Shown here: in pieces, positions 10,159-38,439 of the stretch | Layout of the letters: each line of letters begins with the position of its first letter | Numbering within the stretch: the first letter of the stretch is position 1 | Assembly (NCBI GenBank): GCA_027533105.1 | Contig: JAPZTW010000001.1 | Coordinates: 1-64,000 of the forward strand | Reading direction: 5' to 3' | Source of the DNA: Sphingomonadaceae bacterium | Lineage (GTDB): Bacteria; Pseudomonadota; Alphaproteobacteria; Sphingomonadales; Sphingomonadaceae | DNA: 64,000 nt | Notes under the pieces: model-generated | Seen by the model: the letters and a program-made list of their open reading frames with translations, nothing else | What the model was told of the DNA's origin: nothing | The model's database searches: none | Made by a program: the position numbers and the translations under genes

Positions 10159-10188
10159 TCGCCAGACGTGCCGGCATGGGGAGAATGC

Positions 10189-11679
10189 ATGGCGCGCAGC
10201 GGGGCGAATGGCGGCAGGGGTGGAACGGTCTCTGTCGCTGATCTGGTCAGCAGGATCGAAGCCGGACCGCAGGGGCCGAAAACCGTTGTCGTCTTCGATT
10301 TCGACGGCACCCTGATCGCGGGCTATTCCGCGAGCGCCTTCTTCCAGGCGCATTTGCGCAAGGGCGATTACAACGCCTTCGATCTGGCCGAGGCCGGGGT
10401 GGCGATCTGGCAATCGGTGGCCAAGGCGATCGAGATGCAGGACCTGCTGAACAAGGCGGTTGGCAAGTGGAAGGGCAAGAAAGAGTCTGAGCTGCTCGAA
10501 CTGGGCGAGAAGATCTTCGACAAGAAACTGTCGGACAAGGTCTATCCTGAAATGGTCACCCTGCTGATGGCCCACCGCAAGGCCGGGCACACCATTGCCA
10601 TCGCCAGTTCCGCCACCCGCTTCCAGGTTGAGCCGACCGCCCGCTTCCTGGGGATCGAGCACGTGATGACCTCGACCGTGGAGGTCAATCGGCGCGGGGT
10701 GCTGACCGGGCGGATGCTGGAGCCGCAGATGTGGGGCAAGGGCAAGGCCGATGCGGTCAAGGCCTTCGTCAAGGCGCGCAAGGCCAGGCTGGCCGACACC
10801 TGGTTCTATGCCGATGGGGACGAGGAGATCGGCCTGATGCAGGCGGTCGGCCACCCCGTTCCCACCAATCCGGGCAAGGAACTGGCCGCAACCGCGCGCG
10901 CGGAAGGCTGGGATATCCTGCGCCACTCCAGCCGCGGTTCGACCACGCCCGAACTGCTCACCCGCACTGCCACGGGCCTGATGAGCCTGTTCCCGCTGCT
11001 CTATACCGGGATCGGGGTAGGGCTGCTGACCCGCAACAAGCGCAATGCCGCCAACCTGACCCTGCCGATGTGGGCGGACAGCGTGATGCTGGCATCGGGG
11101 GTGAAGCTGCGGGTTTCGGGGCGCGAGCATCTCAGCTCGCACCGGCCGGCCGTTTTCCTGTTCAACCATCGCAACAATTTCGACGCCTTCTTCGTTGGCG
11201 CCTTGGTCCGCACAGACCTCGCCTGGGTGGGCAAGGCCGAACTCAAGAAGAACCCGATCAGCGCCATGCTGAGCCGCCTCGTACCCGTCGCTTTCGTCGA
11301 GCGGAGCGGCGGTTCGCCCGAGGAGGCCGCCAAGGCGCTGGAGCCGGTCGCTAAGATGGTCCGCGAAGGCTGTTCGATCATGATCGCGCCCGAAGGCACG
11401 CGCGTGCGCGATATGACGGTCGATGTCGGGCCCTTCAAGAAGGGCGCGTTCCACATGGCTCGCAGCCTCGGCATTCCGCTGGTGCCGATCGTGATCCGTA
11501 ACGCACTGGACGTGGCCGGACGCGATGCGGTCATGCTGCGATCGGGTACGGTCGACATTGCCGTGCTGCCGCCAGTCGAGACGAAGGGCTGGACCGAGAA
11601 GTCAGTCTCCGCAAAGGTCGAGGAAGTGCGGCAGATGTTTGTAGATACCCTGAAGGATTGGCCCGATGTCGATGATTGA
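10189..11679 (+). CDS. HAD-IB phosphatase fused to PlsC-type acyltransferase
   Basis: 496 residues in two domains. The first (about 20-240) is a HAD-IB hydrolase with motif I VFDFDGTLIAGYSA, motif II in AIASSATRF and motif III in WFYADGDEE. The second (about 290-490) is a 1-acyl-glycerol-3-phosphate acyltransferase with the NHRNNFD block (HX4D) and the PEGTR block. Such fusions are known in actinobacteria and some proteobacteria and could couple acylation of lysophosphatidate with dephosphorylation toward diacylglycerol. The ATG at 10189 has a GGGGAG site. It overlaps the following lipase gene by 14 bp. The exact substrate of the HAD domain is not known. Confidence 0.85.
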   Translation: MARSGANGGRGGTVSVADLVSRIEAGPQGPKTVVVFDFDGTLIAGYSASAFFQAHLRKGDYNAFDLAEAGVAIWQSVAKAIEMQDLLNKAVGKWKGKKESELLELGEKIFDKKLSDKVYPEMVTLLMAHRKAGHTIAIASSATRFQVEPTARFLGIEHVMTSTVEVNRRGVLTGRMLEPQMWGKGKADAVKAFVKARKARLADTWFYADGDEEIGLMQAVGHPVPTNPGKELAATARAEGWDILRHSSRGSTTPELLTRTATGLMSLFPLLYTGIGVGLLTRNKRNAANLTLPMWADSVMLASGVKLRVSGREHLSSHRPAVFLFNHRNNFDAFFVGALVRTDLAWVGKAELKKNPISAMLSRLVPVAFVERSGGSPEEAAKALEPVAKMVREGCSIMIAPEGTRVRDMTVDVGPFKKGAFHMARSLGIPLVPIVIRNALDVAGRDAVMLRSGTVDIAVLPPVETKGWTEKSVSAKVEEVRQMFVDTLKDWPDVDD

Positions 11680-17709: not shown

Positions 17710-18657
17710 ATGGCGACCCATACCACCAAGATGCTGATTATCGGCTCCGGCCCGGCCGGGCTTTCCGCCGCGATCTATGGCGCGCGCGCCGGGATGCAGC
17801 CGATCGTGGTGCAAGGCCTCCAGCCGGGCGGGCAGCTGACCATCACCACCGATGTCGAGAACTACCCCGGCTTTCGCGACGTGATCCAGGGCCCTTGGCT
17901 GATGCAGGAAATGCAGGCCCAGGCCGAACATGTCGGCACCCGGATGCTCTGGGACACGATCACCGAGGTTGACCTTTCGGGCCCGCCGTTCCGCGCGGTC
18001 GGGGACAGCGGCGATATCTATGAAGGCGAAACGCTGGTGATCGCCACCGGGGCCCAGGCCAAATGGCTGGGCGCGCCGGGCGAGCAGGAGTTTTCCGGCA
18101 AGGGCGTTTCGGCCTGCGCCACCTGCGACGGGTTCTTCTATCGCGGCAAGAAGGTCGTGGTGATCGGCGGCGGCAATACCGCGGTGGAAGAGGCGCTCTA
18201 CCTCACCAACCATTCGCAGGACGTGACGCTGATTCACCGCCGCGATTCGCTGCGCGCGGAAAAGATCCTGCAGGATCGCCTGTTCGCCCATCCCAACATC
18301 AAGGTGCTGTGGAACAAGGCGGTCGAGCGGTTCGTGGGAGAGGGCGGCCTCACTGGCGTCGAGCTGAAGGACACGGTGACTGGCGAAACCACGGTCGAAC
18401 CGGCCGACGGGGCCTTTGTGGCGATCGGCCATGCCCCGGCGACCGAACTGTTCAAGGGCAAGCTGGAACTGGATGGCGGCGGCTACATCGTGGTCGAGGC
18501 CGGCACGCCCAAGACCGCGATCCCCGGCGTCTTCGCCTGTGGCGACGTGATGGACCACACCTATCGCCAGGCCGTGACCGCCGCGGGCACGGGCTGCATG
18601 GCAGCGCTCGATGCCGAGCGGTTCCTGGCCGCGCGGGAATTCGCCGCGCGCGGCTAA
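17710..18657 (+). CDS. trxB: Thioredoxin-disulfide reductase
   Basis: 315 residues. This FAD enzyme passes electrons from NADPH to thioredoxin in the cytosol. Motifs: the FAD-binding IIGSGPAGLSAAIYGARA, redox-active CATCDG (CxxC) near residues 136-139, the NADPH-binding VVIGGGNTAVEEAL with HRRDSLRAEK, and the C-terminal FAD motif GVFACGDVMDHTYRQAVTAAGTG. The start at 17710 is placed 7 bases after AGGA; an ATG at 17704 is possible. Its stop overlaps the stop of the convergent exosortase-associated hydrolase. Confidence 0.95.
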   Translation: MATHTTKMLIIGSGPAGLSAAIYGARAGMQPIVVQGLQPGGQLTITTDVENYPGFRDVIQGPWLMQEMQAQAEHVGTRMLWDTITEVDLSGPPFRAVGDSGDIYEGETLVIATGAQAKWLGAPGEQEFSGKGVSACATCDGFFYRGKKVVVIGGGNTAVEEALYLTNHSQDVTLIHRRDSLRAEKILQDRLFAHPNIKVLWNKAVERFVGEGGLTGVELKDTVTGETTVEPADGAFVAIGHAPATELFKGKLELDGGGYIVVEAGTPKTAIPGVFACGDVMDHTYRQAVTAAGTGCMAALDAERFLAAREFAARG

Positions 18658-19469
18658 GCGAGGCTGCGCAGCACCGCCAGGATCTGGCCCTGGAGCCAGA
18701 TCCGCGCCTGCGGTTCGACAAAGCTGTGGCTGGCGTCAGGGCACTGGCGCAGGCGCGGGTCGGCCTTGTCCCAATTGGCGAGAAACGCCTGGGCCGTGCG
18801 GTCATTCTGCGCGAGCAGGATCGTGACCGGCCCATCGAAGCCCGCCAGCCCTGCGGCCATCTGCTGGGCGAGGGACGAGGGCGGTGCATCGGTCTTGGCC
18901 GCTTCGGCCAGCGAGGCGGCCATCTGCCCCACCTTCACCTTGCCGGTCAGCAGGCGCCAGACCGCGCGCGGATCGGTCAGGCGCTTGAGGTAATGGCGGC
19001 GCAGCACCGAGGGCGGCATCGGCGTGGGGGCGGGGGTTTCCTCGACAGCTTCCGCCGCAGCGGCTGCCGGTTCGAAGGTCCAGGGATTGGCCAGGACCAG
19101 TCCGTCCAGCCCCGCACCGCCCGCCAGCATCAGCGCGCTGGCAGCATCGCAATTGCCGAAGGCGACGATCCGCTTCAGCGTCGGCACATGGGCGCGAAAG
19201 GCGGCAATCGCGGCGGCAATGTCAGGGCCGGAAGCGCCAAAGCCCGCATTCTCTCCCGCGCTGTCACCCACCCCGCGCCGGTCGAAGCGGAAGGCGGGAA
19301 AGCCCGCCAAGGCGACCTTCTCCGCGATCTGCGCCTGGCTGCTCCACGGGCCGGAGCGCAACTCGTTGCCGCCCGACACGATCAGCAACCCGGTGCGCCC
19401 CGGCGCCGGATCGAGCGTGCCAACCAGTTCGGCCCCTTCGCAGGGAAAGGTAACATGGCGGCGGCTCAT
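18654..19469 (-). CDS. Exosortase A system-associated hydrolase 1
   Basis: 271 residues, alpha/beta hydrolase fold. It opens with FPCEGAELVGTLDPAP and GLLIVSGGNELRSG, then FDRRGVGDSAGENAGF, characteristic of the hydrolase-1 family found only beside xrtA loci. The nucleophile elbow reads AFGNCDAASAL (Cys or Asp at the usual Ser place), and a late DASHSF supplies a likely His. It is the last gene of a four-gene minus-strand unit, overlapping hydrolase 2 by ATGA. The GNCD elbow suggests a Cys nucleophile, perhaps a thioesterase or transferase. The substrate is unknown. Confidence 0.85.
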   Translation of the reverse strand: MSRRHVTFPCEGAELVGTLDPAPGRTGLLIVSGGNELRSGPWSSQAQIAEKVALAGFPAFRFDRRGVGDSAGENAGFGASGPDIAAAIAAFRAHVPTLKRIVAFGNCDAASALMLAGGAGLDGLVLANPWTFEPAAAAAEAVEETPAPTPMPPSVLRRHYLKRLTDPRAVWRLLTGKVKVGQMAASLAEAAKTDAPPSSLAQQMAAGLAGFDGPVTILLAQNDRTAQAFLANWDKADPRLRQCPDASHSFVEPQARIWLQGQILAVLRSLA

Positions 19470-20137
19470 GCCCGCACCGCCATGGTCAGGTAAGCGGCCA
19501 GGGCATCGGCCTGGCTCGGGGCATAGTCAGGCTCGGCCCGCAACCACAGCGGACTGCCACCAACAACATCCTGCGCGATCTCGGCTAGCGTAGCGGGCTG
19601 GGCCGCCTGCAAGTGCTGGACCATGCCCGCGCCCAGCCGATAGCCGGCCAGTTCGATCCCGTGTTCCTGGGCTTCGACCAGCAGGCCTTCGCCGCTTTCC
19701 TCGCGCCCGGCCTCGCGGGCCGACAGCACCCTTGCGCGCAGCATCGTGCGCAGCAGGCTGGAACCTTTCACCGGGCCATAGCACCAGCCCGGCAGCCCCG
19801 GCGGAACGATCAGGCCACCACCGCGCACGGCCAGCACATGGGTGGCGCGAAAATGGTCGGCGGCAGCAGTCATGGCGCTAGCCCAATCGGCCAGGGTCAG
19901 GCCGGTCAGGTCGGCCGTGCTTTCGTTGGTGCCAGGCAGATCGGGCAGGAAGCTGTCGACCCCGCTGCCATCCAGCCGCCGCATCACCTCGACACAGAGG
20001 CGGCGCAGCTTGTGGCCTTCATCGAACAGGGCCGGGATTATCAGCAGGCGCACCGCCTGGCCCCGGTCGAACGCCAGCGCATATTCAGGCGCGCCGGGAT
20101 CGCTTGGCCGGGGGCAGGGGTAGCTGGCTGGGGTCAC
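19466..20137 (-). CDS. Exosortase A system-associated hydrolase 2
   Basis: 223 residues, alpha/beta hydrolase-like. The region LLIIPALFDEGHKLRRLCVEVMR and the following SFLPDLPGTNES match the hydrolase-2 family of xrtA loci. The position expected for a nucleophile elbow reads LAVRGGGLIV and has no Ser, Cys or Asp, and no convincing catalytic His is seen near the C-terminus, so it may be non-catalytic. GTG start at 20137; it overlaps the ACP stop (GTGA) and the hydrolase 1 start (ATGA), so all three are coupled. Confidence 0.8.
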   Translation of the reverse strand: MTPASYPCPRPSDPGAPEYALAFDRGQAVRLLIIPALFDEGHKLRRLCVEVMRRLDGSGVDSFLPDLPGTNESTADLTGLTLADWASAMTAAADHFRATHVLAVRGGGLIVPPGLPGWCYGPVKGSSLLRTMLRARVLSAREAGREESGEGLLVEAQEHGIELAGYRLGAGMVQHLQAAQPATLAEIAQDVVGGSPLWLRAEPDYAPSQADALAAYLTMAVRA

Positions 20138-20397
20138 GCCGCCTCGCGCTTGGCCTCGGCAAAGGCGAGCAGCGCGCCATAGGTTTCGAGCAGCTCGCCA
20201 TCGACCTCGTCATCCTCGATCACGATGTCCAGGCGGTCTTCCATTTCGGTCAGCAGACCGGCAACGGCCATCGAATCCAGTTCGGGCAGGTGGCCGAACA
20301 GGCCGGTATCCGCGTCAAAGCCATCGGCCTGGCCGGGCTTGAGGCCCAGCACGTCGGTCAGGATCTTGCGGAGTTGCTGATCGGTGGTCGAAGACAT
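20134..20397 (-). CDS. Acyl carrier protein of the exosortase-associated module
   Basis: 87 residues, acidic and helical, with the phosphopantetheine site in LPELDSMAVAGLLTEMEDRL (DSM, Ser near residue 42) and the ACP-like end LLETYGALLAFAEA. The ATG at 20397 has AGGA 8 bases upstream. It is a dedicated carrier distinct from the fatty-acid AcpP by its LPELDSM core. It sits between a GNAT-like gene and hydrolase 2, and across a divergent promoter from an AMP-forming acyl ligase that could load it. The thioester it carries is unknown. Confidence 0.88.
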   Translation of the reverse strand: MSSTTDQQLRKILTDVLGLKPGQADGFDADTGLFGHLPELDSMAVAGLLTEMEDRLDIVIEDDEVDGELLETYGALLAFAEAKREAA

Positions 20398-20443
20398 CGT
20401 CTGTTCCTGCATCGCGGCCCGCAGGCCCCCTCTGCGCGCGCCT

Positions 20444-21457
20444 CTAGCCAGCCCTGCGCCCCGGCACAAGGCGGCGCAGCGCCTTGCGGGCGATTGCCGG
20501 CCAGGTTCCCGGCCATTTCGCGCGGAAGGCCTCGATCCGGTAACGCGGGCGCACGTCCTCCATCCAGTCGCGCTTGTAGGGATCGTCGCCCGTGCCGAAA
20601 TCGACCAGGTCCACCTTGTCCTCGTCGATCACCCGCGCCAGCAGGGCGGCGGTCAGCGTCGTTCCGGGCGAAAGCGGCTTGGCGGCTTCGACATGGGCCA
20701 GCTTGTGAATGAAGGCGGTGCCGCCTTCCACGGTCCAGAACTGGGCGGCCACCGCTTCCCCATTGGCGCGAGCCACACCCAGCCGCAACCGCCCGGCGCG
20801 GCCTTCGGCCTCGGCAAAGCGGCGCAGGAACTCGGGCGATCCTTCCTCGCCCTTCCAGCTCTGGGCATAGATCGCTTCGTAGGCGGCCCAGCTTTCCGGA
20901 TTGAACGCGGTTTCGATCGAGACCGCCACCTTGGCCGCCTTGCGCTTCAAGGTGGTGCGCACCGGGCCGGGCCGGGTGGCAAGATAAGCGGCATAGCTGC
21001 GGCCATTGACCGGCAGCACGTGATTGACGTCGCACTGTTCGACAAAGGTGGTCCAGCCCGCACGGCGCAGGGCGGCGGCCAGAGCCGTGGTTGTGCCATC
21101 CTCGTCCGGGAAAGGTGACAGGACCAGGTGCGGGGTCTGACCAGCGAGATCGGCCGCCAGGGCAGCGAGCAGCCCGGCGCGATCGGCATCCGGCGTGAAC
21201 AGCGGCGCGACCCGGAACGAATACCAGTTGGCGAGACAATGGACCTGGCGGCCACGGCGCAGCAGCGGCATGACGGCACGCTCCCGGCCAGCCTTGGCCA
21301 CGGCGATCAGGGGGAACAGATCGCAGACCTCGACCAGACCCTGCCACCACTCGATCCGGTCAAAGGGCGCGCGGGCCTGCGGCGCGGCCAGCAGCAAGGC
21401 AAGCTGCGCATCGGCTTGCACTTCCTTAAGATCATCGTGATAGACAACGCGAACCAA
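20444..21457 (-). CDS. GNAT / FemAB-like acyltransferase, exosortase-associated
   Basis: 337 residues. The fold resembles the FemAB/GNAT acyltransferases: FDRIEWWQGL at the start, NHVLPVNGRSYAAYLATRPG, then the acetyltransferase-like LRLGVARANGEAVAAQFWTVEGGTAFIHKLAHVEAAKPLSPGT and VDLVDFGTGDDPYKRDWM. I chose a TTG start at 21457 (first codons give VRVVYHDDL); a longer frame would run into the divergent acyl ligase gene. It is first in the minus-strand unit with the ACP and hydrolases. It may transfer an acyl or aminoacyl group from the ACP; the acceptor is unknown. Confidence 0.75.
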   Translation of the reverse strand: MVRVVYHDDLKEVQADAQLALLLAAPQARAPFDRIEWWQGLVEVCDLFPLIAVAKAGRERAVMPLLRRGRQVHCLANWYSFRVAPLFTPDADRAGLLAALAADLAGQTPHLVLSPFPDEDGTTTALAAALRRAGWTTFVEQCDVNHVLPVNGRSYAAYLATRPGPVRTTLKRKAAKVAVSIETAFNPESWAAYEAIYAQSWKGEEGSPEFLRRFAEAEGRAGRLRLGVARANGEAVAAQFWTVEGGTAFIHKLAHVEAAKPLSPGTTLTAALLARVIDEDKVDLVDFGTGDDPYKRDWMEDVRPRYRIEAFRAKWPGTWPAIARKALRRLVPGRRAG

Positions 21458-21494
21458 GTTTGCCGAACCCCCATCAGCGGAGCACCGCCAGGCC
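21458..21494. promoter_or_regulatory. 37-bp divergent interval between two TTG starts
   Basis: Only 37 bp separate the GNAT and acyl ligase genes, which diverge and both appear to start with TTG. This is too short for two ordinary non-overlapping promoters, so their promoters must overlap each other or lie inside the opposite coding regions. No clear -35/-10 pair is seen here. Confidence 0.35.
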
Positions 21495-23042
21495 TTGTCT
21501 CTTTCCGATCCCGTCGCGATCAGTCCGCTGGACCATCTCGCCCTGCGCGGTGAAGACAATGCGCCTGCGCTGGTGCTGCGCGATCGCACTCTTAGCTACA
21601 AGGACTTAAGGGAAAGTGTCGCCCGGCTGGCAGGCTGGCTGCAAGGCCAGGTGGCAGAGCCGGGCGCGCGGGTGGCGTCATGGGCCGCCAAGGGCGAACT
21701 GACCTGTCTGTTGCCGCTGGCGGCGGCGCGGGCCGGGCTGGTCCATGTGCCGATCAACCCGCTGCTGAAGCGCGCGCAGGTGGCGCATATCCTGGCCGAT
21801 AGCGGCGCGCGGCTGCTGATCGGCACCGAAGCCCGGCTGGCGACGCTGGAACCGGGCGATGCCCCCGCGGACTGCGCCGTAAAGGCTGAAAAGGCCGTGC
21901 TGGCGGAATATCATGAGGGCGCCGCGCTGGCCCCTTCGCAGGGCGATCCGGCCCGGTTGGCGGCAATCCTTTATACCAGCGGCTCTACCGGGCGTCCCAA
22001 GGGGGTGATGCTGAGCCATGCCAATCTGTGGCTCGGCGCGGAGAGCGTTGCCTCCTATCTGGATCTTGGGCCAGCTGACGTCACGCTGGCCGTGCTGCCT
22101 CTGTCGTTCGATTATGGCCAGAACCAGCTGCTCAGCACTTGGTATGCCGGGGGCAGTGTCGCCCCACTCGATTACCTGACCCCGCGTGACGTCGTGAAGG
22201 CGGTGGAACGCCACGGCGTCACCACGCTGGCGGCCGTCCCGCCGCTGTGGGTGCAATTGACCGAGCTGGACTGGCCGGCTGAAACTGCCAGAAAGCTGCG
22301 CCGCCTGACCAATTCGGGTGGCGCGCTGACGGTCGATCTGGTGGCGCGGCTGCGGGGGCTGTTTCCGGCGGCGCGGTTGTTCCCGATGTATGGCCTGACC
22401 GAGGCTTTCCGCTCGACCTATCTCGATCCGGCGCTGGTGGATACGCATCCGACCTCGATGGGCAAGGCGATCCCCCATGCCGAAATCCTGGTGATCGGCG
22501 ATGATGGCGCCGTGACAGCCGATGGCGAGGAGGGCGAGCTGGTCCACTGCGGGCCGCTGGTGGCGCAGGGCTATTGGCAGGACCCGGAACGGACCGCTGA
22601 ACGGTTCAAACCGGCCCCGGCAGCCTCGCGCTATGGCGGGATCGCGGTCTGGTCGGGCGACCGGGTGCGGCGCGATGGCGATGGCCTGCTCTATTTCGTC
22701 GGACGCCGTGACGCCATGATCAAGAGCGCAGGCAACCGGATCAGCCCGCAGGAGATCGAGGAGGCCGCGCTGGCGACCGGTCTGGTGGCCGAGGCCGTGG
22801 CGCTGGGCATCCCCGACGAGCGGCTTGGGCAGGCGGTGCACCTCGTCGTGCGGGCCGCGCCGCAAAGTTCGGACGCAATGGAAGATTTGCCCCGTAAACT
22901 TATGCAGGATTTGCCGAATTTCATGCAGCCGAAGGTCATTCACTGGCGTGACGTCATGCCGATTTCCCCCAATGGCAAGCTGGATCGCACCGGGCTTTAT
23001 CAGGAGCTGACCCGGGGGATGGCGCAGGAGCTGACGTCGTGA
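21495..23042 (+). CDS. AMP-forming acyl-CoA/acyl-ACP ligase, exosortase A-associated
   Basis: 515 residues of the ANL adenylating superfamily. Motifs: P-loop-like AILYTSGSTGRPKGVMLSH, the motif MYGLTEAFRSTYLDP, then WSGDRVRRDGDGLLYFVGRRDAMIKSAGNRISPQEIEEA with the Asp and hinge, and a catalytic Lys in PNGKLDRTG. It activates a carboxylic acid as its adenylate and would pass it to CoA or, given the divergent ACP gene, to that carrier. TTG start at 21495. It overlaps the decarboxylase gene by 4 bp. The substrate is unknown. Confidence 0.9.
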   Translation: MSLSDPVAISPLDHLALRGEDNAPALVLRDRTLSYKDLRESVARLAGWLQGQVAEPGARVASWAAKGELTCLLPLAAARAGLVHVPINPLLKRAQVAHILADSGARLLIGTEARLATLEPGDAPADCAVKAEKAVLAEYHEGAALAPSQGDPARLAAILYTSGSTGRPKGVMLSHANLWLGAESVASYLDLGPADVTLAVLPLSFDYGQNQLLSTWYAGGSVAPLDYLTPRDVVKAVERHGVTTLAAVPPLWVQLTELDWPAETARKLRRLTNSGGALTVDLVARLRGLFPAARLFPMYGLTEAFRSTYLDPALVDTHPTSMGKAIPHAEILVIGDDGAVTADGEEGELVHCGPLVAQGYWQDPERTAERFKPAPAASRYGGIAVWSGDRVRRDGDGLLYFVGRRDAMIKSAGNRISPQEIEEAALATGLVAEAVALGIPDERLGQAVHLVVRAAPQSSDAMEDLPRKLMQDLPNFMQPKVIHWRDVMPISPNGKLDRTGLYQELTRGMAQELTS

Positions 23043-24265
23043 AGCCGCTTGGTCCGATCCCCGCAGGTTATGGCGCTATCGATGGCGAACTGGCGGTTGC
23101 CGGGCGCAAGGCGAGCGAACTGGTCGAACAGGCGGGGCGCACGCCGCTGTTCGTCTATTCGCGCGAGCTGGTCGAACAGCGCGTGGCTGACCTGCGCGCG
23201 GCCCTGCCGGAGCGGGTGGCGCTGCACTATGCGGTCAAGGCCAATCCCTTCGCTCCGCTGCTGGCGGCCATGACCGGACTGGTTGACGGCTTCGACATTG
23301 CTTCGGGTGGGGAGCTGGAGATGGTTCGCGCGGCCGGGATCGATCCGGCGCGGATCAGCTTTGCCGGGCCGGGCAAGCGCGATGCGGAACTGGAAGCGGC
23401 GATTGCCGCCCGGGTTACGCTGAACCTCGAATCCGAGGGCGAAGCCGCGCGAGCGTTGACCCTTGCGGATCGGTTGGGTGTGGTTCCGAAGCTGGCGGTG
23501 CGGGTCAATCCCGATTTCGACCTCAAGGGTTCGGGCATGAAGATGGGCGGCGGGGCCAAGCCGTTCGGCGTCGATGCCGAGCGGGTGCCGGCCCTGGTCC
23601 GCACGATCCTGGGGGCTGGAGCAGACTGGCAGGGGTTCCACATCTTCGCCGGCAGTCAGGCGCTCGATGCCGCAGCGATTGCCGATACCCAGGCCCAGAC
23701 GATCGCGCTGGCCGCGCGCCTCAGCCGCGAAGTGGGCCAGCCCTTGGCCAAGTGCAACCTGGGTGGGGGCTTCGGCATTCCCTATTTTCCGGGCGACGTG
23801 CCGCTCGATCTGGCCGCGGTTGGGGCGGCGCTGGGCGAACGGCTGGCGCAGCTGCCCGCTGACCTTGCCGAGACGCGGTTCTGCATCGAGCTGGGCCGCT
23901 ATCTCGTTGGCGAGGCTGGGGTTTACCTGACCCGGATCGTCGACCGCAAGGTCAGCCACGGGGAGACCTATCTCGTCACCGATGGCGGTCTACATCACCA
24001 GCTGGCGGCTTCGGGCAATTTCGGCACGGTGGTGCGGCGGAACTATCCGGTTGCGATCGCCAACCGGTTCGACGCGCCGGTCGAGGAAGAAGCCAGCGTG
24101 GTCGGGTGCCTGTGCACCCCGCTTGACCGGCTGGCCGACAAGGCCGGGTTCCCCCGCGCCGAAGTGGGCGATCTGGTCGCCGTGTTTTGCGCCGGAGCCT
24201 ATGGCGCCAGCGCCAGCCCGGCAATGTTTCTGGGCCAGGGACCGGCCGCCGAACTGCTGGTCTGA
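23039..24265 (+). CDS. PLP-dependent decarboxylase, exosortase A-associated
   Basis: 408 residues, fold-type III, related to diaminopimelate and ornithine decarboxylases. The PLP lysine is in LHYAVKANPFAPLL (near residue 67). Phosphate-binding GGGFGIPYF is present, and the usual EPGR is ELGRYLV here. The catalytic Cys motif reads CTPLDRLAD and the late motif is AGAYGASASP. It should make an amine from an amino-acid-like substrate and shares an operon with the acyl ligase. The specificity residues do not let me name the amino acid; as LysA itself it would be odd in this place. Confidence 0.88.
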   Translation: MKPLGPIPAGYGAIDGELAVAGRKASELVEQAGRTPLFVYSRELVEQRVADLRAALPERVALHYAVKANPFAPLLAAMTGLVDGFDIASGGELEMVRAAGIDPARISFAGPGKRDAELEAAIAARVTLNLESEGEAARALTLADRLGVVPKLAVRVNPDFDLKGSGMKMGGGAKPFGVDAERVPALVRTILGAGADWQGFHIFAGSQALDAAAIADTQAQTIALAARLSREVGQPLAKCNLGGGFGIPYFPGDVPLDLAAVGAALGERLAQLPADLAETRFCIELGRYLVGEAGVYLTRIVDRKVSHGETYLVTDGGLHHQLAASGNFGTVVRRNYPVAIANRFDAPVEEEASVVGCLCTPLDRLADKAGFPRAEVGDLVAVFCAGAYGASASPAMFLGQGPAAELLV

Positions 24266-24453: not shown

Positions 24454-25098
24454 ATGCCGTCCATTCGTTCATCCCGCCTGCTGGCCAGTAGCGCCGTGGC
24501 CTGCCTGGCGCTGGCCGGGTGTGCCGGGAGCGGAGGTGGTCCGCAGCTGCCGCCTGCCGCTTTCGTGGCGATGCAGGAAGGCCCGGGCGAGGAATACGTC
24601 ATCGGCCCGCTGGATGAGCTGACGATCTTCGTCTGGCGCAATCCCGAACTGGGCGCGCAGGTTCAGGTGCGGCCCGACGGGCGGATCACCACGCCGCTGA
24701 TCACCGACATGCCGGCCGTGGGCAAGACCCCCAAGATGCTGGCTGACGACATCACCCTGCAACTCTCGCAGTACATCCAGGAACCGCTGGTCTCGGTGAT
24801 CGTGAACAAGTTTGCCGGCACCTTCAGCCAGCAGGTGCGGATCGTCGGGGCGACGACCAAGCCGGCCTCGATCCCCTATCGCGCCAACATGACGCTGCTC
24901 GACGCGATGATCGCGGTGGGCGGCCTCAGCGAATTTGCCGCCGGCAACCGCGCGCGCCTGATCCGCTTCGACAAGCAGACCGGCGGGCAGACGGAATACG
25001 CGATCCGCCTGGCCGATCTGCTCCGCAAGGGCGACAGCAAGGCCAACGTCATGCTGATGCCTGGCGATGTGATCATCATCCCCGAAAGCACGTTCTGA
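24454..25098 (+). CDS. XrtA-system polysaccharide export lipoprotein (Wza-type)
   Basis: 214 residues. A lipoprotein signal peptide with lipobox LALAGC (Cys near residue 23) precedes the poly-export domain (EEYVIGPLDELTIFVWRNPELGAQVQVRPDG, then QQVRIVGATTKPASIPYRANMTLLDAMIAVGG, a SLBB-like domain) and ends with MLMPGDVIIIPES. It forms the outer-membrane/periplasmic channel for the polymer. It is the first gene of a long co-directional operon with chain-length, kinase and OMP genes; a 188-bp gap before it is likely to hold the operon's promoter. Confidence 0.92.
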   Translation: MPSIRSSRLLASSAVACLALAGCAGSGGGPQLPPAAFVAMQEGPGEEYVIGPLDELTIFVWRNPELGAQVQVRPDGRITTPLITDMPAVGKTPKMLADDITLQLSQYIQEPLVSVIVNKFAGTFSQQVRIVGATTKPASIPYRANMTLLDAMIAVGGLSEFAAGNRARLIRFDKQTGGQTEYAIRLADLLRKGDSKANVMLMPGDVIIIPESTF

Positions 25099-25119
25099 GC
25101 AGGGGCGCGCGGGGCTGGC

Positions 25120-26640
25120 ATGAACAACATCTACGACGAACTGCGATCCGCGATCTTTTCGGTCTGGCACCGGCGCTGGCTGGCGCTGGGCGTGGCCTGG
25201 GCGGTCTGCCTGCTGGGGTGGCTGGTCGTGGCGCTGGTTCCCAATACCTATGAATCGAAGGCCCGGATTTTCGTCCAGCTCGACGATGCCCTGTCGGAAG
25301 TGACCGGCGTCGGCGTCGGCAACCGCAAGCGCGATATCGACCGGGTGCAGCAGACGCTGACCAGCGCGATCAACCTGGAAAAGGTGATCCGCTCCACCGC
25401 GATCGGCGACGAGATCACCTCGCCCAAGCAGATGGAAGCCGCCGTGCTGGGCCTGGCCAAGAAGGTGAAGGTCGAAAGCGAGAAGGACAACCTGTTCGCG
25501 ATCACCGCCGAATTCGGCGATGGCGACCGCTCCGATGCCGAGAACGCCAAGATCGCGCAGGACATCGTCCAGAAGATGATCGACATCTTCCGCGAGGAGA
25601 ACCTGGCCGGCAACCGGGGCGAGATGACCCAGTCGCTGACCTTCATGGACCAGCAACTGGGCCAGCGACAGAAGGAACTGGAAGCGGCGGAGCAGAAGCG
25701 GCTCGCTTTCGAGGCCGCCAATCCCGACCTGATCCAGGGCGGGGCGGGGGCGCTCCAGCGGCTTGAGGCGGCGCGCTCGGAAATGCGCGGGATCGATGCC
25801 GATCTGGCGGCGGCCCAGTCGGCCCTCGCTGCGATCAACGGCCAGCTCGCGGGTACGCCGCAGACCTTGCCGGGCATGGGGCCGCAAGGCGGGGCGCGCG
25901 GCGCTCTGGCCGAAGCCCAGGCCATGCTCGCCGGTCTGCGCGCGCGCGGGCTGACCGAGAACCACCCCGACGTGATCGCCGCCAAGAACCAGATCAACCT
26001 GCTGCGCGGCGCGGCCGCCAGCGAAACCGGGCCCACGGGCATTCCCAACCCGGCCTATTCCTCGCTCCAATCGATCCGCGCCGAGCGGCAGGCCAGCGTC
26101 CAGGCCCTGATGGCCCGCCGCGCGGCGCTGCAATCGGATATCAGCCGGATCACCACGGCCCAGATTTCCAACCCGGAACTGGCCGCCGAACACCAGCGGA
26201 TCAACCGCGACTACGACGTGCTCAAGCAGCAATATGACAAGCTGTTGCAGGACCGCGAGGAACTGCGCCTGCGTGGCCAGGTGGAAACCGAACACAATGC
26301 GGTGAAGTTCGAGGTGATCGACCCGCCGACCACCCCGCGCGCCCCGGTTGCGCCCAACCGGCCGCTGCTGCTGCTGGCCGTGCTGGTGGTGGGGCTGGGC
26401 GCGGGCGTCGGCGCGGCTTTCGCCATCGGCCAGCTGCGCTCCACTTTCGCGACCACTGCCCGGCTTGAGCGGGCCCTTGGGCTGCCGGTGCTGGGCGCGA
26501 TCACCCACACCCTGAATGACCAGGCCCGGCTGCTGCGCAAGCGGCGGATGAAGCAGTTCTACATGGCGAGCGCCGCCTTGGGTGGGATCTTCATGCTGCT
26601 GCAGGTGGCCGAGATCATCCAGGTCCGGACGGTGGGCTGA
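25120..26640 (+). CDS. XrtA-system polysaccharide chain-length determinant (Wzz/GNVR)
   Basis: 506 residues, a polysaccharide co-polymerase of the inner membrane. An N-terminal transmembrane helix (about 22-40, LALGVAWAVCLLGWLVVALVPN), a long periplasmic coiled-coil segment (QQLGQRQKELEAAEQKRLAFEAAN onward) and a proline-rich stretch before the second helix (PRAPVAPNRPLLLLAVLVVG) follow the Wzz plan. It lacks the fused kinase domain, which is encoded by the next gene 11 bp away. It controls polymer length and works with the kinase and export lipoprotein. Confidence 0.92.
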   Translation: MNNIYDELRSAIFSVWHRRWLALGVAWAVCLLGWLVVALVPNTYESKARIFVQLDDALSEVTGVGVGNRKRDIDRVQQTLTSAINLEKVIRSTAIGDEITSPKQMEAAVLGLAKKVKVESEKDNLFAITAEFGDGDRSDAENAKIAQDIVQKMIDIFREENLAGNRGEMTQSLTFMDQQLGQRQKELEAAEQKRLAFEAANPDLIQGGAGALQRLEAARSEMRGIDADLAAAQSALAAINGQLAGTPQTLPGMGPQGGARGALAEAQAMLAGLRARGLTENHPDVIAAKNQINLLRGAAASETGPTGIPNPAYSSLQSIRAERQASVQALMARRAALQSDISRITTAQISNPELAAEHQRINRDYDVLKQQYDKLLQDREELRLRGQVETEHNAVKFEVIDPPTTPRAPVAPNRPLLLLAVLVVGLGAGVGAAFAIGQLRSTFATTARLERALGLPVLGAITHTLNDQARLLRKRRMKQFYMASAALGGIFMLLQVAEIIQVRTVG

Positions 26641-30703: not shown

Positions 30704-31582
30704 GTGGCGGCCATTCCCGACCGGATAGTCAACGGCCTGTCGGTCGACGTCGAGGACTGGTTCCAGGTCGGCGCCTTCGAAGGCGTGATCGACCGGGAGG
30801 CCTGGGATGCGCTGCCCGACCGGGTCGAGCGCAATCTCGACGAGATCCTCGCGCTGTTCGCGGCCTGCGAGGTGAAGGCCACTTTCTTTACCCTGGGCTG
30901 GGTGGCGCAGCGGCATGGCCCGCTGATGCGCCGGATTGTCGCCGCGGGTCACGAACTTGCGAGCCATGGCTGGGATCATGCGCGGGTCTTCACCCTGGGC
31001 AGGGAGGCCTTCGCGGCAGATGTCGAGCGCGCCCGCAAGGTGCTGGAGGATGCGGCGGGTGTGGCGATCACCGGCTATCGTGCGCCCAGCTTCTCGATCG
31101 ACCAGCGCACCCCCTGGGCCTATGACGTGCTGGCGGAGCAGGGCTATGCCTATAGCTCCAGCGTCGCGCCGATCGTTCACGATCACTATGGCTGGCGCGA
31201 AGCGCCGCGCTTTGCCTTTCGCCCGCTGGACGGGAGCGATCTGGTCGAGATTCCGGTCACCACCGCCGAATTCGCCGGGCGGCGGCTGGCGGCGGGCGGG
31301 GGCGGGTTCTTCCGGGTCCTGCCCTATGCCTTCTCGCGCTGGGCGATCCGCCAGGTCAACGGCACCGACCGGCGTCCGGCCGTGTTCTATTTCCACCCCT
31401 GGGAGATCGACCCGGCCCAGCCGCGCGTTCCCGGCGCCCCGCTGCGTTCGCGGCTGCGGCATTACACCAACCTTTCGGCGATGGCCGGCAAGCTGGAACA
31501 GCTGATCTGCGAATTTGAGTGGGGCCGGATGGACGAGCTGGCCCGGCGCGAGGCCCGGCAGGCCCTGGACCTCGCCGCGTGA
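30704..31582 (+). CDS. XrtA-system polysaccharide deacetylase (NodB fold, DUF3473)
   Basis: 292 residues. The NodB motif 1 LSVDVEDWFQV (catalytic/metal Asp), motif 2 HELASHGWDHARVF (HxxxH zinc ligands), YRAPSFSI and a late FYFHPWEID are visible, with the DUF3473 tail. It would remove acetyl groups from the sugar polymer, probably in the periplasm or at the inner membrane, though no signal peptide is seen. GTG start at 30704; the stop overlaps the following GTG (GTGA). Confidence 0.92.
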   Translation: MAAIPDRIVNGLSVDVEDWFQVGAFEGVIDREAWDALPDRVERNLDEILALFAACEVKATFFTLGWVAQRHGPLMRRIVAAGHELASHGWDHARVFTLGREAFAADVERARKVLEDAAGVAITGYRAPSFSIDQRTPWAYDVLAEQGYAYSSSVAPIVHDHYGWREAPRFAFRPLDGSDLVEIPVTTAEFAGRRLAAGGGGFFRVLPYAFSRWAIRQVNGTDRRPAVFYFHPWEIDPAQPRVPGAPLRSRLRHYTNLSAMAGKLEQLICEFEWGRMDELARREARQALDLAA

Positions 31583-32652
31583 ACGCGCCGTTCCGCCTTG
31601 ATGACCGGGTGATCGAGATCGACCTCGCCGATCCGGGCGAGGCGGCGCAGATCGAGGCCTTTGTGGCCGCGCAGTCCAACGCGACCCCGTTTCACCGCCC
31701 GGCCTGGCTGACGGCGGTGGCGGCGGGCAGCGGCAATCGCGCGCTGCTCCTCGCGATTGAACGCGGCGGCATGATCGCGGCGATCCTGCCGCTGCTTGAC
31801 GTGCGTTCGCCGCTGTTCGGCAAGGTGCTGGTCTCCAGCGGCTTTGGCGTCGGCGGCGGGATCCTTGCCGAGCGTGCGGTCGATGCGGACCTGCTGATCG
31901 AAGCGGCCGAGCGCGAAGCTCTGGCGCGCGGCTGTCCGACCATCGAACTGCGCGGCGGGCCGCTGCCCGAAGGACGCACTGGCTGGCGGGTGCGCAGCGA
32001 TAGCCACTGCGGCTATGTCGCCGACCTCGCTCCCGACGATGACGCCCAGCTGGCCGCGATCCCGCGCAAGCAGCGCGCCGAGGTGCGCAAGGGGCTGGCA
32101 GCCGACCTGACCGTGCGGATCGGCACCGGACCGGATGACCGCGCGGCCCATTACGCCGTCTATGCCGAAAGCGTCCGCAATCTCGGCACGCCGGTCTTTC
32201 CGAAGCGGCTGTTTGCGGAAGTGCTCGATGCTTTTGGCCCCGATGCCGATATCCTGACCGTGTTCCACCAGGGCACGCCGGTCGCGAGCGTGCTCTCGCT
32301 CTATCATGGCGGCGCGGTCATGCCCTATTGGGGCGGAGGTACTCGCGCCGCGCGGGCCCTGCGCGCCAATGACCGGATGTATTTCGAACTGATGCTGCAC
32401 GCCCGCAGGCGCGGCTGCGGCCGGTTCGACTTTGGCCGCTCCAAGGTCAATTCCGGGGCCGGGGACTTCAAGAAGAACTGGGGCTTTGCGGCCAGTCCGC
32501 TGGGCTATGCCAGCTGGACCGCGCCGGGCGCCGAGCCCCGCGATGCCGACCCCACCAGCGCGCGCCATGCCCGGCGGATCGCGCTGTGGAAGCGCTTGCC
32601 GCTGCCTTTCGCCAACCTGTTCGGGCCGTTCATTTCCCGGGGCCTGGCATGA
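31579..32652 (+). CDS. FemAB family XrtA-associated protein
   Basis: 357 residues. The opening DDRVIEIDLADPGEAAQIEAFV and TPFHRPAWLTAV, then VASVLSLYHGGAVMPYWGGGTRAARALRANDRM and FDFGRSKVNSGAGDFKKNWGF match FemAB/GNAT-like proteins of PEP-CTERM loci. Homologues transfer an acyl or aminoacyl group; acceptor unknown. GTG start at 31579 is coupled to the deacetylase stop (GTGA) and the stop is coupled to the glycosyltransferase (ATGA). It is a second FemAB/GNAT-like protein in the locus besides the one at 20444-21457. Confidence 0.88.
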   Translation: MNAPFRLDDRVIEIDLADPGEAAQIEAFVAAQSNATPFHRPAWLTAVAAGSGNRALLLAIERGGMIAAILPLLDVRSPLFGKVLVSSGFGVGGGILAERAVDADLLIEAAEREALARGCPTIELRGGPLPEGRTGWRVRSDSHCGYVADLAPDDDAQLAAIPRKQRAEVRKGLAADLTVRIGTGPDDRAAHYAVYAESVRNLGTPVFPKRLFAEVLDAFGPDADILTVFHQGTPVASVLSLYHGGAVMPYWGGGTRAARALRANDRMYFELMLHARRRGCGRFDFGRSKVNSGAGDFKKNWGFAASPLGYASWTAPGAEPRDADPTSARHARRIALWKRLPLPFANLFGPFISRGLA

Positions 32653-33887
32653 CCAACGAAATCCTGTTCATCTCGCATCGGATGCCGTTCCCGCCCGATC
32701 GGGGTGACAAGATCCGCTCGCACCACGTGCTGAAACGGCTGGCGGCGCTGGCACCAGTCCATGTTGCGACCTTCGCCGATGACGAACGCGATATTGCCGA
32801 GGAAGTGGAACTGGCCGCCCTTGCTCGGTCCTATCGTCTGGTCCGGCGGGTCAAGCCGCTGGTCCTGTCGGGCGTCCAGGCCATCGTCCAGAACAAGCCG
32901 GTCAGCCTGACCGCCTTTTCGAACAGCGAGCTGGCCGGTTACATCGAAACAGTGCTGCGGGAACGGCCGATCTCGACCATCTATGTCTTTTCCGGGCAGA
33001 TGGGCCAGTACATCCCGGACTGGTTCAAGGGGCGGGTCGTGTTCGACTTCGTCGATGTCGATTCGGCCAAGTTCGAAGCCTATGCCGAGCGCGACACGGG
33101 GCTGCGGCGCTGGATCCATGCGCGCGAAGCCAGGCTGCTGCAGGCCGAGGAAGCCCGCCAGGCCGCGCGCGCCGATCTCAGCCTGCTGATCTCGCCCGAG
33201 GAGGCAGCCCTGTTCCGGGCGCGCCTGGCCCCGGAACAGGCGGCGGTCACCGAGGTGCGATCGATGCGCAACGGGATTGAAAGCCGTTACTTCGATCCGG
33301 CGGCCGTGCGGCCCGAACCGCGCCTGCTCGATTGCCCCGGCCCGCGGATCATCTTCACCGGGCAGATGGACTATGCCCCGAACATCGAGGCCGCGCTGCG
33401 CGTGATCGAGCGCCTGCTGCCCGGCATCCGCGAACTGCTGCCCAATGCCACTTTCCACGTGGTCGGACGCAATCCGCCGGACGAGCTGACCCGTCATCAT
33501 GAACGCGCCGGGGTCCACGTCTGGGGCGGGGTGGACGACATGCGCACCTGGCTGGCGGCGGCCGAACTCGCCCTGGTTCCGCTCGAAATTGCCCGCGGCA
33601 TCCAGAACAAGGTGCTGGAAGCCATGGCGATGAACCTGCCGGTCGTGCTGACCCCTTCGGCCGCGACCGGGATCGGCGCGGTCGATGGCCAGCATTTCGT
33701 GGTGGCCGATAGCGATGCCGAACTGATCGACCGCGTTACGGCGCTGCTCTCCCATCCACGCCAGGGCTGGAGCATGGGGCTGGAAGCCCGCCGCTTCGTG
33801 GTTGATCACCTCAGCTGGCAAGCCAGCCTGGCGCCCCTCGCGGAAATGATCGGCGCAGCCGGAACGCAGCGGCGCAATGCCGCCTGA
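32649..33887 (+). CDS. XrtA-system glycosyltransferase (TIGR03087-like, GT4 type)
   Basis: 412 residues, GT-B fold. The N-terminus ILFISHRMPFPPDRGDKIRSHHVL is characteristic of the PEP-CTERM family of sugar transferases. The C-terminal half has ITFTGQMDYAPN-type and VVGRNPPDELTRHHERAGVHVWGGVDDM, then LVPLEIARGIQNKVLEAMAMNLPVV, with the E-x7-E-like nucleotide-sugar region. It adds sugar to the polymer at the cytosolic face. It overlaps xrtA by 11 bp. Confidence 0.9.
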   Translation: MTNEILFISHRMPFPPDRGDKIRSHHVLKRLAALAPVHVATFADDERDIAEEVELAALARSYRLVRRVKPLVLSGVQAIVQNKPVSLTAFSNSELAGYIETVLRERPISTIYVFSGQMGQYIPDWFKGRVVFDFVDVDSAKFEAYAERDTGLRRWIHAREARLLQAEEARQAARADLSLLISPEEAALFRARLAPEQAAVTEVRSMRNGIESRYFDPAAVRPEPRLLDCPGPRIIFTGQMDYAPNIEAALRVIERLLPGIRELLPNATFHVVGRNPPDELTRHHERAGVHVWGGVDDMRTWLAAAELALVPLEIARGIQNKVLEAMAMNLPVVLTPSAATGIGAVDGQHFVVADSDAELIDRVTALLSHPRQGWSMGLEARRFVVDHLSWQASLAPLAEMIGAAGTQRRNAA

Positions 33888-35424
33888 AGCCATCCTGACT
33901 GTTTCCGCCACGGCGGATGACCTGCGCTGGCGCCAGGCGCTGGTGCGGCTCGGAGGCGTCTGGCTGGCCCTGATCCTCGCATTCCTGCCGGATTGGCGGG
34001 ACATGGCGGTGCAGTGGTGGGATAGCTCCACGTACAACCACATCCTGTTGATCCCGGCGATCCTGGCCTGGCTGGTCTGGCTGCGGCTTGACCAGTTGCG
34101 CCAGCTTGTTCCGCAGGCCTGGGGTCCCGGCGCGGCCTTTGTCGCAGCCGCCCTGGCGCTGTGGGTGCTGGGCGCGTTCTCCGGCTTCAACCTGTTTCGG
34201 CAGGCGGGGGCCGTGGCGCTGTTACCAGCCAGCCTGATCCTGCTGCTGGGGCCGCGCGTTGCGGTGGGCCTGCTGTTTCCGCTGTGCTACATGGCCTTCC
34301 TCGTCCCGTTCGGCGACGAACTGGTTCCGGCGCTGCAAACCCTTACCGCCGCGCTGACGATCGCGCTGGTTCACCTCAGCGGGGTTCCGGCCGTGGTCAA
34401 CGGCGTGCTGATCGATACGCCGGCGGGCCTGTTCGAAGTGGCCGAAGCCTGTTCGGGGGTAAAGTTCCTGATCGCCATGGTGGCGCTGGGCGCGCTGGTG
34501 GCGAATGTCTGCTTCCGGTCCTGGCCGCGCCGGGCCCTGTTCATGCTGCTCTGCGTGGTCGTGCCGATCCTTGCCAACGGGGTGCGCGCCTGGGGCACGA
34601 TCTACATCGCGCAATATGTCGGCGCCGAAGTCGCCGGGGGCTATGACCACATCATCTATGGCTGGGTGTTCTTTGCCGTGGTGATCGGCGCGATCCTCGG
34701 TCTGTCGTGGCGCCACTTCGATCGCGGCGTGGACGAACCGATGATCGATGCGGCGCAGATCAACCGGCTTGACTGGCTGGACCGCATCTCGCGCCGTCCA
34801 CTGGCCGATTGGCTGGCCATCCTGCTGTGCGGGGCGCTGGTGCTGGGTGCGCAAGGGTGGGCACGGGCCGCGGATCGCCTGGCCGCGCCCTTGCCGGGGC
34901 AGATCTTCCTGCCGGAAGTGCCGGGCTGGCAGCGGGTGGACTATGCGCCCGCAACCTGGTGGGAACCGCGTGCCAGCGGGGCGCAACATCGGCTGCTGGG
35001 CCGCTATGCCGATCGCGACGGGCGCCAGGTCGATGTGTTCCTGGCCCTGTACGACCGCCAGGGCGAAGGACGCGAAGCCAGCGGATTTGGGGAAGGGGCG
35101 CTGATGCCCGACAGTCCCTGGGCCTGGATCGCCGCCGGTCCGGCCAGTCCCGGGGCCCGCAGCGAGCGCCTGATGGCCAATGGCCGGACCGAACGGCTGA
35201 CCCAGACCTATTTCCGCCATGCCGACCTGCTGAGCGGCAGCGCGCTGCGGCTCAAGCTCGCGACGATGCAGGATCGCCTGCTGCTGCAGCGCGAGCCGAC
35301 CGTCATGCTGATCCTCTCGACCGAGCCACGGCCGGACGAGGATGGCGCAGCCACGCTCGATCGCTTCCGTCAGTCCACCGGCCCGGTTGGGCCGTGGATA
35401 GACCGCATCGTCGCGCTTCGGTAA
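33877..35424 (+). CDS. xrtA: Exosortase A with fused EpsI-like domain
   Basis: 515 residues, an inner-membrane protease/transpeptidase that cleaves PEP-CTERM signals. About eight membrane helices fill residues 1-290. The catalytic Cys is in EACSGVKFL (about 192), the Arg in ILANGVRAWG (about 237) and the His in GYDHIIYGW (about 258), completing the exosortase triad. Residues about 330-515 form a periplasmic EpsI-like domain (LPEVPGWQRVDYAP onward). It lies inside the polysaccharide operon, between the glycosyltransferase and amidotransferase. No target protein is encoded nearby. Confidence 0.95.
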   Translation: MPPEAILTVSATADDLRWRQALVRLGGVWLALILAFLPDWRDMAVQWWDSSTYNHILLIPAILAWLVWLRLDQLRQLVPQAWGPGAAFVAAALALWVLGAFSGFNLFRQAGAVALLPASLILLLGPRVAVGLLFPLCYMAFLVPFGDELVPALQTLTAALTIALVHLSGVPAVVNGVLIDTPAGLFEVAEACSGVKFLIAMVALGALVANVCFRSWPRRALFMLLCVVVPILANGVRAWGTIYIAQYVGAEVAGGYDHIIYGWVFFAVVIGAILGLSWRHFDRGVDEPMIDAAQINRLDWLDRISRRPLADWLAILLCGALVLGAQGWARAADRLAAPLPGQIFLPEVPGWQRVDYAPATWWEPRASGAQHRLLGRYADRDGRQVDVFLALYDRQGEGREASGFGEGALMPDSPWAWIAAGPASPGARSERLMANGRTERLTQTYFRHADLLSGSALRLKLATMQDRLLLQREPTVMLILSTEPRPDEDGAATLDRFRQSTGPVGPWIDRIVALR

Positions 35425-37392: not shown

Positions 37393-37407
37393 ATCGGGAG
37401 AGCAGGG

Positions 37408-38430: not shown

Positions 38431-38439
38431 AGGCCGGGC

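Follow-up and report, generated by a model that had tools for sequence, protein, structure and literature searches.

Which chemistry is encoded by a block of six genes that accompanies the exopolysaccharide (EPS) cluster of exosortase A (XrtA) in a sphingomonad, and to which product does this chemistry contribute? The block is situated in the first 64,000 nucleotides of contig JAPZTW010000001.1 (assembly GCA_027533105.1, Sphingomonadaceae bacterium), the whole stretch being termed the window in the following, and combines a ligase, a pyridoxal phosphate (PLP)-dependent decarboxylase, an acyl carrier protein (ACP), two alpha/beta hydrolases and a GNAT protein. NCBIfam names exosortase A-associated ligase, decarboxylase and hydrolase families without substrate or product, and in the open-access full-text literature we found no paper that assigns these families a substrate or function. 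Equally, no paper on a link between gamma-aminobutyrate (GABA) and exosortases was found in the open-access literature, and in a term search of the 2006 paper that defined the system (PMC1569441) ligase, decarboxylase, acyl carrier, hydrolase and FemAB are absent.

We propose that ligase, ACP and decarboxylase, subsequently called the trio, cooperate as a short assembly line comparable to VinN/VinL/VinO (AfcQ/AfcK/AfcP). In this scheme, the ligase would attach L-aspartate, or less likely glutamate, to the ACP by the side-chain carboxyl. The carrier-bound amino acid would next lose its alpha-carboxyl through the decarboxylase, leaving a beta-alanyl (or gamma-aminobutyryl) group to be transferred to the polysaccharide of the XrtA locus or to its lipid-linked precursor. 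This last step would be performed by hydrolase 1, with a cysteine nucleophile and hydrolase 2 as a non-catalytic partner, and/or by the FemX-fold GNAT where it is present. By comparison with characterized relatives, carrier-bound decarboxylation of an amino dicarboxylate appears highly probable; the proposal as a whole, with the trio supplying an amine-ended group to the XrtA-locus polysaccharide, we hold with moderate confidence. Beta-alanyl-ACP is the likely product of the trio as judged from its homologues, and gamma-aminobutyryl-ACP a possible one because BtrK uses glutamate. Family, pocket residues, clade, active-site residues, co-occurrence and polysaccharide context were read from sequence; the exact amino acid, the recipient and the transfer enzyme we infer. 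If true, a gene set of unknown purpose would become a testable pathway with a concrete substrate (aspartate), an ACP-bound intermediate diminished by 44 Da and a product (beta-alanine in the polysaccharide), an antibiotic-assembly trick would have been carried into cell-surface chemistry, and a handle on the chemistry of the XrtA system would be gained. The components of the block are:

21495..23042, plus strand: ligase, VinN-type standalone adenylating enzyme (TIGR03098), with D206/S274/R306 at the places of VinN D230/S299/R331 and the A10 lysine K495
23039..24265, plus strand: PLP decarboxylase of the BtrK clade (TIGR03099), motif CTPLD
20134..20397, minus strand: dedicated acyl carrier protein of 87 residues, predicted 4'-phosphopantetheine serine S42 in ELDSM
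19466..20137, minus strand: alpha/beta hydrolase similar to hydrolase 2, with Arg in the position of the nucleophile, probably a partner without catalytic role
18654..19469, minus strand: hydrolase 1, alpha/beta hydrolase (TIGR03100) with Cys107-His248-Asp223, candidate aminoacyl transferase or thioesterase
20444..21457, minus strand: GNAT (PF13480) with a FemX-like aminoacyl-transferase fold, accessory

All six predicted open reading frames (ORFs) were confirmed at the positions, on the strands and in the protein classes that a preliminary description of this DNA had given, including the 4-bp overlap between ligase and decarboxylase. On the minus strand the order is GNAT, ACP, hydrolase 2 and hydrolase 1, with the GNAT gene 46 bp upstream of ACP and overlaps of 4 bp each between the three genes that follow. 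That description had also ascribed membership in exosortase A-associated families to the block, which holds for the ligase (TIGR03098, 652.9 bits; cut-off 592.35), the decarboxylase (TIGR03099, 603.8 bits; cut-off 478.45) and hydrolase 1 (TIGR03100, 231.7 bits; cut-off 168.45), but not for hydrolase 2, which with 28.1 bits against TIGR03101 remains far below the curated NCBIfam cut-off of 202.75 and resembles that family weakly. In sphingomonads and relatives, represented by the best 80 of 104 loci found with the decarboxylase as query, homologues at the same locus (phmmer E <= 1e-5, loci cut by contig ends counted too) were detected for the ligase in 80, ACP in 79, GNAT in 79, hydrolase 2 in 76 and hydrolase 1 in 73 loci, a six-gene linkage that is not due to chance.

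A probable carrier-bound amino acid

The nearest PDB entries of the whole ligase are amino acid adenylation domains with the two-domain gramicidin synthetase LgrA on top; as the scores of the two domains of the LgrA entries add up, just the pocket segment sets VinN apart from the rest. With this segment (residues 197-340) as query, VinN is the first PDB match with 49.8 bits, followed by an entry with 33.0 bits, and the A5 stretch of the ligase aligns to VinN ungapped over YGLTEAFRSTYL. VinN D230 coordinates the amino group of methyl-aspartate, and S299 and R331 are proposed to recognize its alpha-carboxyl, according to excerpts of PMC7756342 and PMC11253843; the 16-residue offset between VinN residue numbers and PDB chain numbering was deduced by us. 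The corresponding D206, Ser/Thr274 and R306 are each present in 121/121 ungapped rows of an alignment of 124 rows, which contains some genomes twice and three rows from below-cut-off loci (L168-L170); two of the three gapped rows that were dropped belong to one genome (G240), the trimmed copy of which shows Asp and Arg in another alignment. Judged by these residues, the ligase has a VinN-type amino-acid pocket. The Arg is also kept in 12/12 further ligases, from loci whose BtrK-like decarboxylase is a more distant one, and in 0/7 lower-scoring ligases of such loci, a contrast that is partly built in since the 12 were picked as the best-scoring ligase per locus. Even so, Arg and decarboxylase occur together, as would fit a residue that binds the carboxyl destined for removal by the decarboxylase.

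Equally, the decarboxylase finds BtrK as the first PDB entry in a phmmer search (212 bits, the best diaminopimelate decarboxylase reaching 147), and a family profile of 13 sequences widens the distance (BtrK 361 bits, next entry 239). In a tree of 52 rows, BtrK is placed inside a group of 31 rows (99/96) together with the XrtA enzymes and below-cut-off relatives, 13 diaminopimelate decarboxylase rows form a separate group (99/98), and 15 XrtA rows plus two rows from genomes without exosortase A match form one group (100/100). The motif CTPxD is shared by BtrK and 79 of 80 sphingomonad decarboxylase rows, the remaining row being gapped there. At the same alignment place CE(S/T)(G/S)D occurs in all 13 diaminopimelate decarboxylase rows, and RPxxY is found in 12/13 of them where XrtA-type enzymes instead have a stretch ending in RxNYP; as 12 of these 13 rows are genome hits labelled by score and motif (the 13th being an Aquifex PDB entry), the motif count is partly circular, which the tree is not. 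One of these rows (L221) has CESSD and no RP. The glutamate of the diaminopimelate decarboxylase motif selects the distal amine. The window enzyme carries CTPLD and neither the CE(S/T)GD nor the RPxxY of free diaminopimelate decarboxylases, and the same genome encodes a separate enzyme with CETGD and RPAMY (L219). A decarboxylase of free substrate that yields a free amine was thus rejected on motif and tree. Given the BtrK grouping, the lost diaminopimelate motifs and the VinN pocket, ligase and decarboxylase most likely act sequentially on one carrier-held amino acid.

The ACP, in which Ser42 is invariant in 14/14 sequences, has as a profile one strong PDB match, the uncharacterised protein 2lki (111 bits, next 38), with ordinary and aminoacyl carriers among the weaker matches. 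It is encoded within the same 20-kb stretch as ligase or decarboxylase in 13/15 module loci, no ACP being seen in that stretch at L178 and at L175 (G102, whose ACP is at L176). At below-cut-off loci, weak ACP matches of 14-32 bits occur in 11/15 cases. Dedicated carrier, activating ligase and PLP decarboxylase, as the preliminary description had named them, are thereby supported.

Assembly lines with these three roles are known from natural product pathways, for which we draw on excerpts of the cited sources. AfcQ/AfcK/AfcP from Burkholderia (AFC-BC11; PMC12186527) and BolO/BolC/BolN of the bolagladin pathway (PMC7756342) resemble the window in a standalone VinN-type ligase with the VinN Arg, a standalone carrier and, as predicted for the window enzyme, a PLP decarboxylase for carrier-bound Asp (in vitro for AfcP, proposed and BtrK-like for BolN). 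Reconstituted in vitro, AfcQ loads Asp by its side chain and AfcP decarboxylates AfcK-bound Asp to beta-alanine in a cycle that can repeat (PMC12186527), and beta-alanine does not rescue a bolN deletion (PMC7756342). Unlike the window, however, these lines feed lipopeptides, and no exosortase or EPS cluster is described in the excerpts. VinN/VinL/VinO of vicenistatin biosynthesis (PMC11284099, PMC11253843) share the three roles as well as D230, S299 (Ser/Thr in the window family) and R331, and VinO acts after thioester formation (PMC11284099), but 3-methylaspartate is loaded for a polyketide synthase, and VinN K330 is Phe in the window ligase. BtrJ/BtrI/BtrK of butirosin biosynthesis contributes the closest solved decarboxylase, which acts on glutamyl-BtrI, a carrier of likewise 87 residues (PMC7857480), whereas its product belongs to an aminoglycoside. 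The GNAT, on the other hand, has the predicted fold of FemABX/MprF proteins, whose known members use aminoacyl-tRNA, while the window GNAT neighbours an ACP gene. BtrJ is of another ligase type than the window ligase.

Distribution of the trio and its link to exosortase A

The block belongs to an EPS cluster with genes for an export protein, chain-length determinant, autokinase (below cut-off), ATPase, deacetylase, FemAB protein, glycosyltransferase, XrtA and amidotransferase. Described previously as standing beside xrtA, it does share the cluster with xrtA, yet the start of the gene at 33877 is 9.6 kb away. Reference points in the cluster are:

24454..26640, plus strand: XrtA exopolysaccharide export protein and chain-length determinant (context)
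30704..31582, plus strand: XrtA system polysaccharide deacetylase (TIGR03006), which could expose an amine acceptor
31519..32652, plus strand: FemAB family XrtA-associated protein (TIGR03019)
33877..35424, plus strand: exosortase A, xrtA (TIGR03109)

Among 348 Pseudomonadota genomes, with a score over the cut-off taken as family presence, XrtA was found in 36, the decarboxylase in 30, the ligase in 29 (all but one of the 30 decarboxylase genomes) and XrtA together with the decarboxylase in 27. The co-occurrence with xrtA that the preliminary description had proposed to check is consequently pronounced, the decarboxylase being present in 27/36 XrtA genomes versus 3/312 others (Fisher value 2.6e-29, with genomes treated as independent and kinship uncorrected); by family, it accompanies XrtA in 8/10 families, in one of which (f40) in 3/9 genomes. 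The three decarboxylase genomes without XrtA are G107 and G342, which have no exosortase A model match, and G146, which has a below-cut-off exosortase match and is the only one with a decarboxylase among the 44 XrtA-less genomes that show a match of this kind. Hydrolase 1 is over the cut-off in 26/348 genomes, all with both XrtA and decarboxylase; in the 27th such genome (G124) hydrolase 2 and hydrolase 1 are fused, in this order, with 166.0 bits in the genome search and 170.6 bits as a protein against the cut-off of 168.45. About four weaker matches of 75-113 bits occur elsewhere, and hydrolase 1 was not found in the three genomes with decarboxylase but without XrtA.

The association is not obligatory in the reverse direction. 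Nine of the 36 XrtA genomes have no decarboxylase over the cut-off, for which reason the trio as a general requirement of XrtA was rejected, and as PEP-CTERM matches occur in 8/9 of these genomes (and in 21/27 with the decarboxylase), sorting does not generally depend on the trio. The XrtA FemAB and deacetylase families, by comparison, match in 36/36 XrtA genomes (34 and 36 over the cut-off), with or without the trio. The genome under study has a sole TIGR02595 PEP-CTERM match at E <= 0.01 (G000:C12:210412-210486) despite xrtA and its cluster, and six XrtA genomes of its family show no PEP-CTERM match.

Proposed transfer and recipient, and rival explanations

As a candidate for the transfer step, hydrolase 1 shows an invariant triad (Cys 81/81, Asp 80/80 and His 80/80 ungapped rows, from an alignment of 84 rows with 3-4 gapped ones dropped), and its model (pLDDT 89.2) has Cys107 at the strand-turn-helix of the nucleophile elbow. 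A cysteine nucleophile suits the exchange of ACP thioesters, so that, from sequence and model, a transferase function is plausible. In hydrolase 2 the nucleophile place, as read from an alignment of 87 rows with four gapped rows dropped, is occupied by Arg in 83/83 ungapped rows; this Arg together with the G124 fusion suggests that the two hydrolases probably work as a pair. The model of the GNAT (pLDDT 93.6) has the aminoacyl transferases FemX, MprF, Sba18 and A-PGS as best fold matches, with FemX first (TM 0.59-0.64 for the Weissella FemX entries). Its designation as GNAT/FemAB-like was hence correct as regards a FemX-fold transferase (PF13480), but the protein differs from the XrtA FemAB family TIGR03019, whose gene is the one at 31519-32652. 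GNAT homologues are present in 15/39 genomes searched, all 15 among the 27 genomes with XrtA and decarboxylase, and in two genomes (G340, G288) on a different contig from the module. Homologues in just 15 of the 27 rule the GNAT out as an indispensable joining enzyme, a role which the preliminary description had given to it and which was rejected.

The recipient is suggested by two loci outside the XrtA system. In G107, one strand encodes ligase, decarboxylase, ACP, a glycosyltransferase 2, a polysaccharide deacetylase and a Wzy_C-like protein (26.4 bits, below the 31.7 of Pfam), two more glycosyltransferases are located upstream on the opposite strand, and no exosortase A model match exists anywhere in the genome. 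In G217, equally without an exosortase A model match, the neighbours of a below-cut-off ligase/decarboxylase pair are genes for an initiating sugar transferase, for glycosyltransferases, for a hexapeptide transferase and for a Wza-type exporter, and the locus of G346 resembles it. These contexts make a surface polysaccharide the most likely recipient of the aminoacyl group and agree with the polysaccharide context claimed for the block at the outset.

Several observations weigh against the proposed route to a polysaccharide. The choice of the loaded acid rests on homology, and the relatives diverge, BtrK using Glu and VinN and AfcQ Asp-type acids; within the shared group of the tree, BtrK is nearest to some below-cut-off relatives and not to the XrtA rows. 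The whole window ligase scores 263.1 with the amino acid adenylation model and 249 with the fatty acid CoA ligase model of NCBIfam, an order that is reversed for the G107 ligase (251.5 versus 298.7), and position 207, the place of VinN F231, is Tyr in 111 rows and Ala in 10. The best 50 fold matches listed for hydrolase 1 are generic alpha/beta hydrolases such as feruloyl esterases and lipases, hydrolase 1 may be a thioesterase, and GNAT homologues are missing from 12/27 genomes with XrtA and decarboxylase. Equally, in 5 of these 27 genomes (G102, G264, G284, G288, G295) ligase and/or decarboxylase are on another contig or >100 kb from xrtA, in G102 ligase and decarboxylase are far from each other, and the 20-kb stretch surrounding the two genes in G264 showed no ACP. 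Finally, in G342, without exosortase A match, the trio is located beside housekeeping genes and not in a polysaccharide locus. This sphingomonad-family genome, which has no hydrolase 1 match and no GNAT homologue, encodes ACP, ligase and decarboxylase at L172:8126-12491 beside a thioredoxin reductase and a type III polyketide synthase-like gene.

Alternative destinations of the aminoacyl group have to be considered. The aminoacyl-ACP might feed a small molecule or lipid, such as an N-acyl-beta-alanine lipid or a short beta-alanine oligomer of the AFC-BC11 type, that is made from the EPS locus and unattached to the polysaccharide. Craig et al. in 2011 reportedly linked N-acyl amino acid synthases to the exosortase system, and such synthases are linked to the family of the TIGR03694 acyltransferase that adjoins the G288 decarboxylase; equally, AfcQ/AfcK/AfcP produce acylated (beta-Ala)n in Burkholderia (PMC12186527). 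However, besides the ligase itself, no model for a fatty acyl-AMP ligase, polyketide synthase or nonribosomal peptide synthetase matches among the 30 window ORFs scanned, which are located in and around the EPS cluster, so that no polyketide or nonribosomal peptide line of the sort supplied in the characterised pathways was found there, and the module or its relative sits among glycosyltransferases and polysaccharide genes in G107 and G217. We regard this destination as rather unlikely. Release of free beta-alanine or GABA by the hydrolases for use elsewhere, for example in coenzyme A, would be in line with two alpha/beta hydrolase genes coupled to ACP and the full triad of hydrolase 1, but is most improbable considering that hydrolase 1 was not found in the three decarboxylase genomes without XrtA and that ordinary routes to beta-alanine exist. 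Likewise very improbable is the original interpretation of the block, in which an acid on the ACP and a free amine derived from ornithine, lysine, arginine or diaminopimelate are joined by the GNAT. Every protein class for it is present, but the BtrK grouping, the lost diaminopimelate motifs, the VinN-type pocket with Asp and Arg and the patchy occurrence of the GNAT speak against the coupling of an acid with an amine produced separately; this reading is probably wrong, and an assembly line of an established type explains the block better.

Two further possibilities connect the trio to protein sorting. Sortase attaches its protein substrates to lipid II at the cross-bridge that FemAB enzymes build. 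By analogy, in genomes that possess the trio and hydrolase 1 next to XrtA, a beta-alanyl amine on the EPS could be the nucleophile of exosortase A, by which PEP-CTERM proteins would be joined covalently to the polysaccharide; the confinement of hydrolase 1 to genomes with XrtA and decarboxylase is what such a junction would predict, and the nine trio-less XrtA genomes would then use another amine. We consider this a distinctly unlikely outcome. Alternatively, the trio could make an amine-bearing acceptor by which exosortase A releases PEP-CTERM proteins, much as an amine lipid has been proposed to serve archaeosortase as acceptor (PMC7157517). Here also the confinement of hydrolase 1, with the fusion in the 27th genome, is favourable, but with the PEP-CTERM matches in eight of the nine XrtA genomes that have no TIGR03099 over the cut-off, and the trio in G107 and G342 without an exosortase A model match, the chances of this acceptor are equally slim. 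A surface polysaccharide as recipient of a trio-derived aminoacyl group is the reading that we retain as the likeliest.

Observations around related loci

Some loci combine the enzymes differently. Four genomes, three of them of family f38, encode decarboxylases with CTxxD (L222, L223, L224, L225) and show no ligase or ACP match within the 10-19 kb read around the gene. At L194, L197 and L198 (decarboxylase near 10.7, 11.0 and 8.1 kb, respectively) two or three adenylating ligases accompany a BtrK-group decarboxylase, the Arg motif of the top-scoring ligase is present as an HR variant, and these are possible clusters for uncharacterised amino acid-derived products. A TIGR03694 acyltransferase (L184:7996-8847, 245.6 bits) and its blastp relatives in L178, L186, L175 and L183 are encoded near ligase or decarboxylase. 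A second asparagine synthase-like amidotransferase was observed near module genes in 4/15 module loci, the one in L181, the sole one tested, scoring with 275 bits well below the TIGR03108 cut-off of 816.9:

L175:11109-12962, second asparagine synthase-like amidotransferase
L180:14726-16579, second asparagine synthase-like amidotransferase
L181:12567-14468, second asparagine synthase-like amidotransferase
L185:1-1566, second asparagine synthase-like amidotransferase

In the window itself, an HlyD-like protein, a two-domain ABC ATPase and two ABC-2 permeases (RbbA-like) are encoded just downstream of the XrtA cluster (37384-42403), and a single ORF at 10168-11679 combines HAD-IB phosphatase and 1-acylglycerol-3-phosphate acyltransferase domains.

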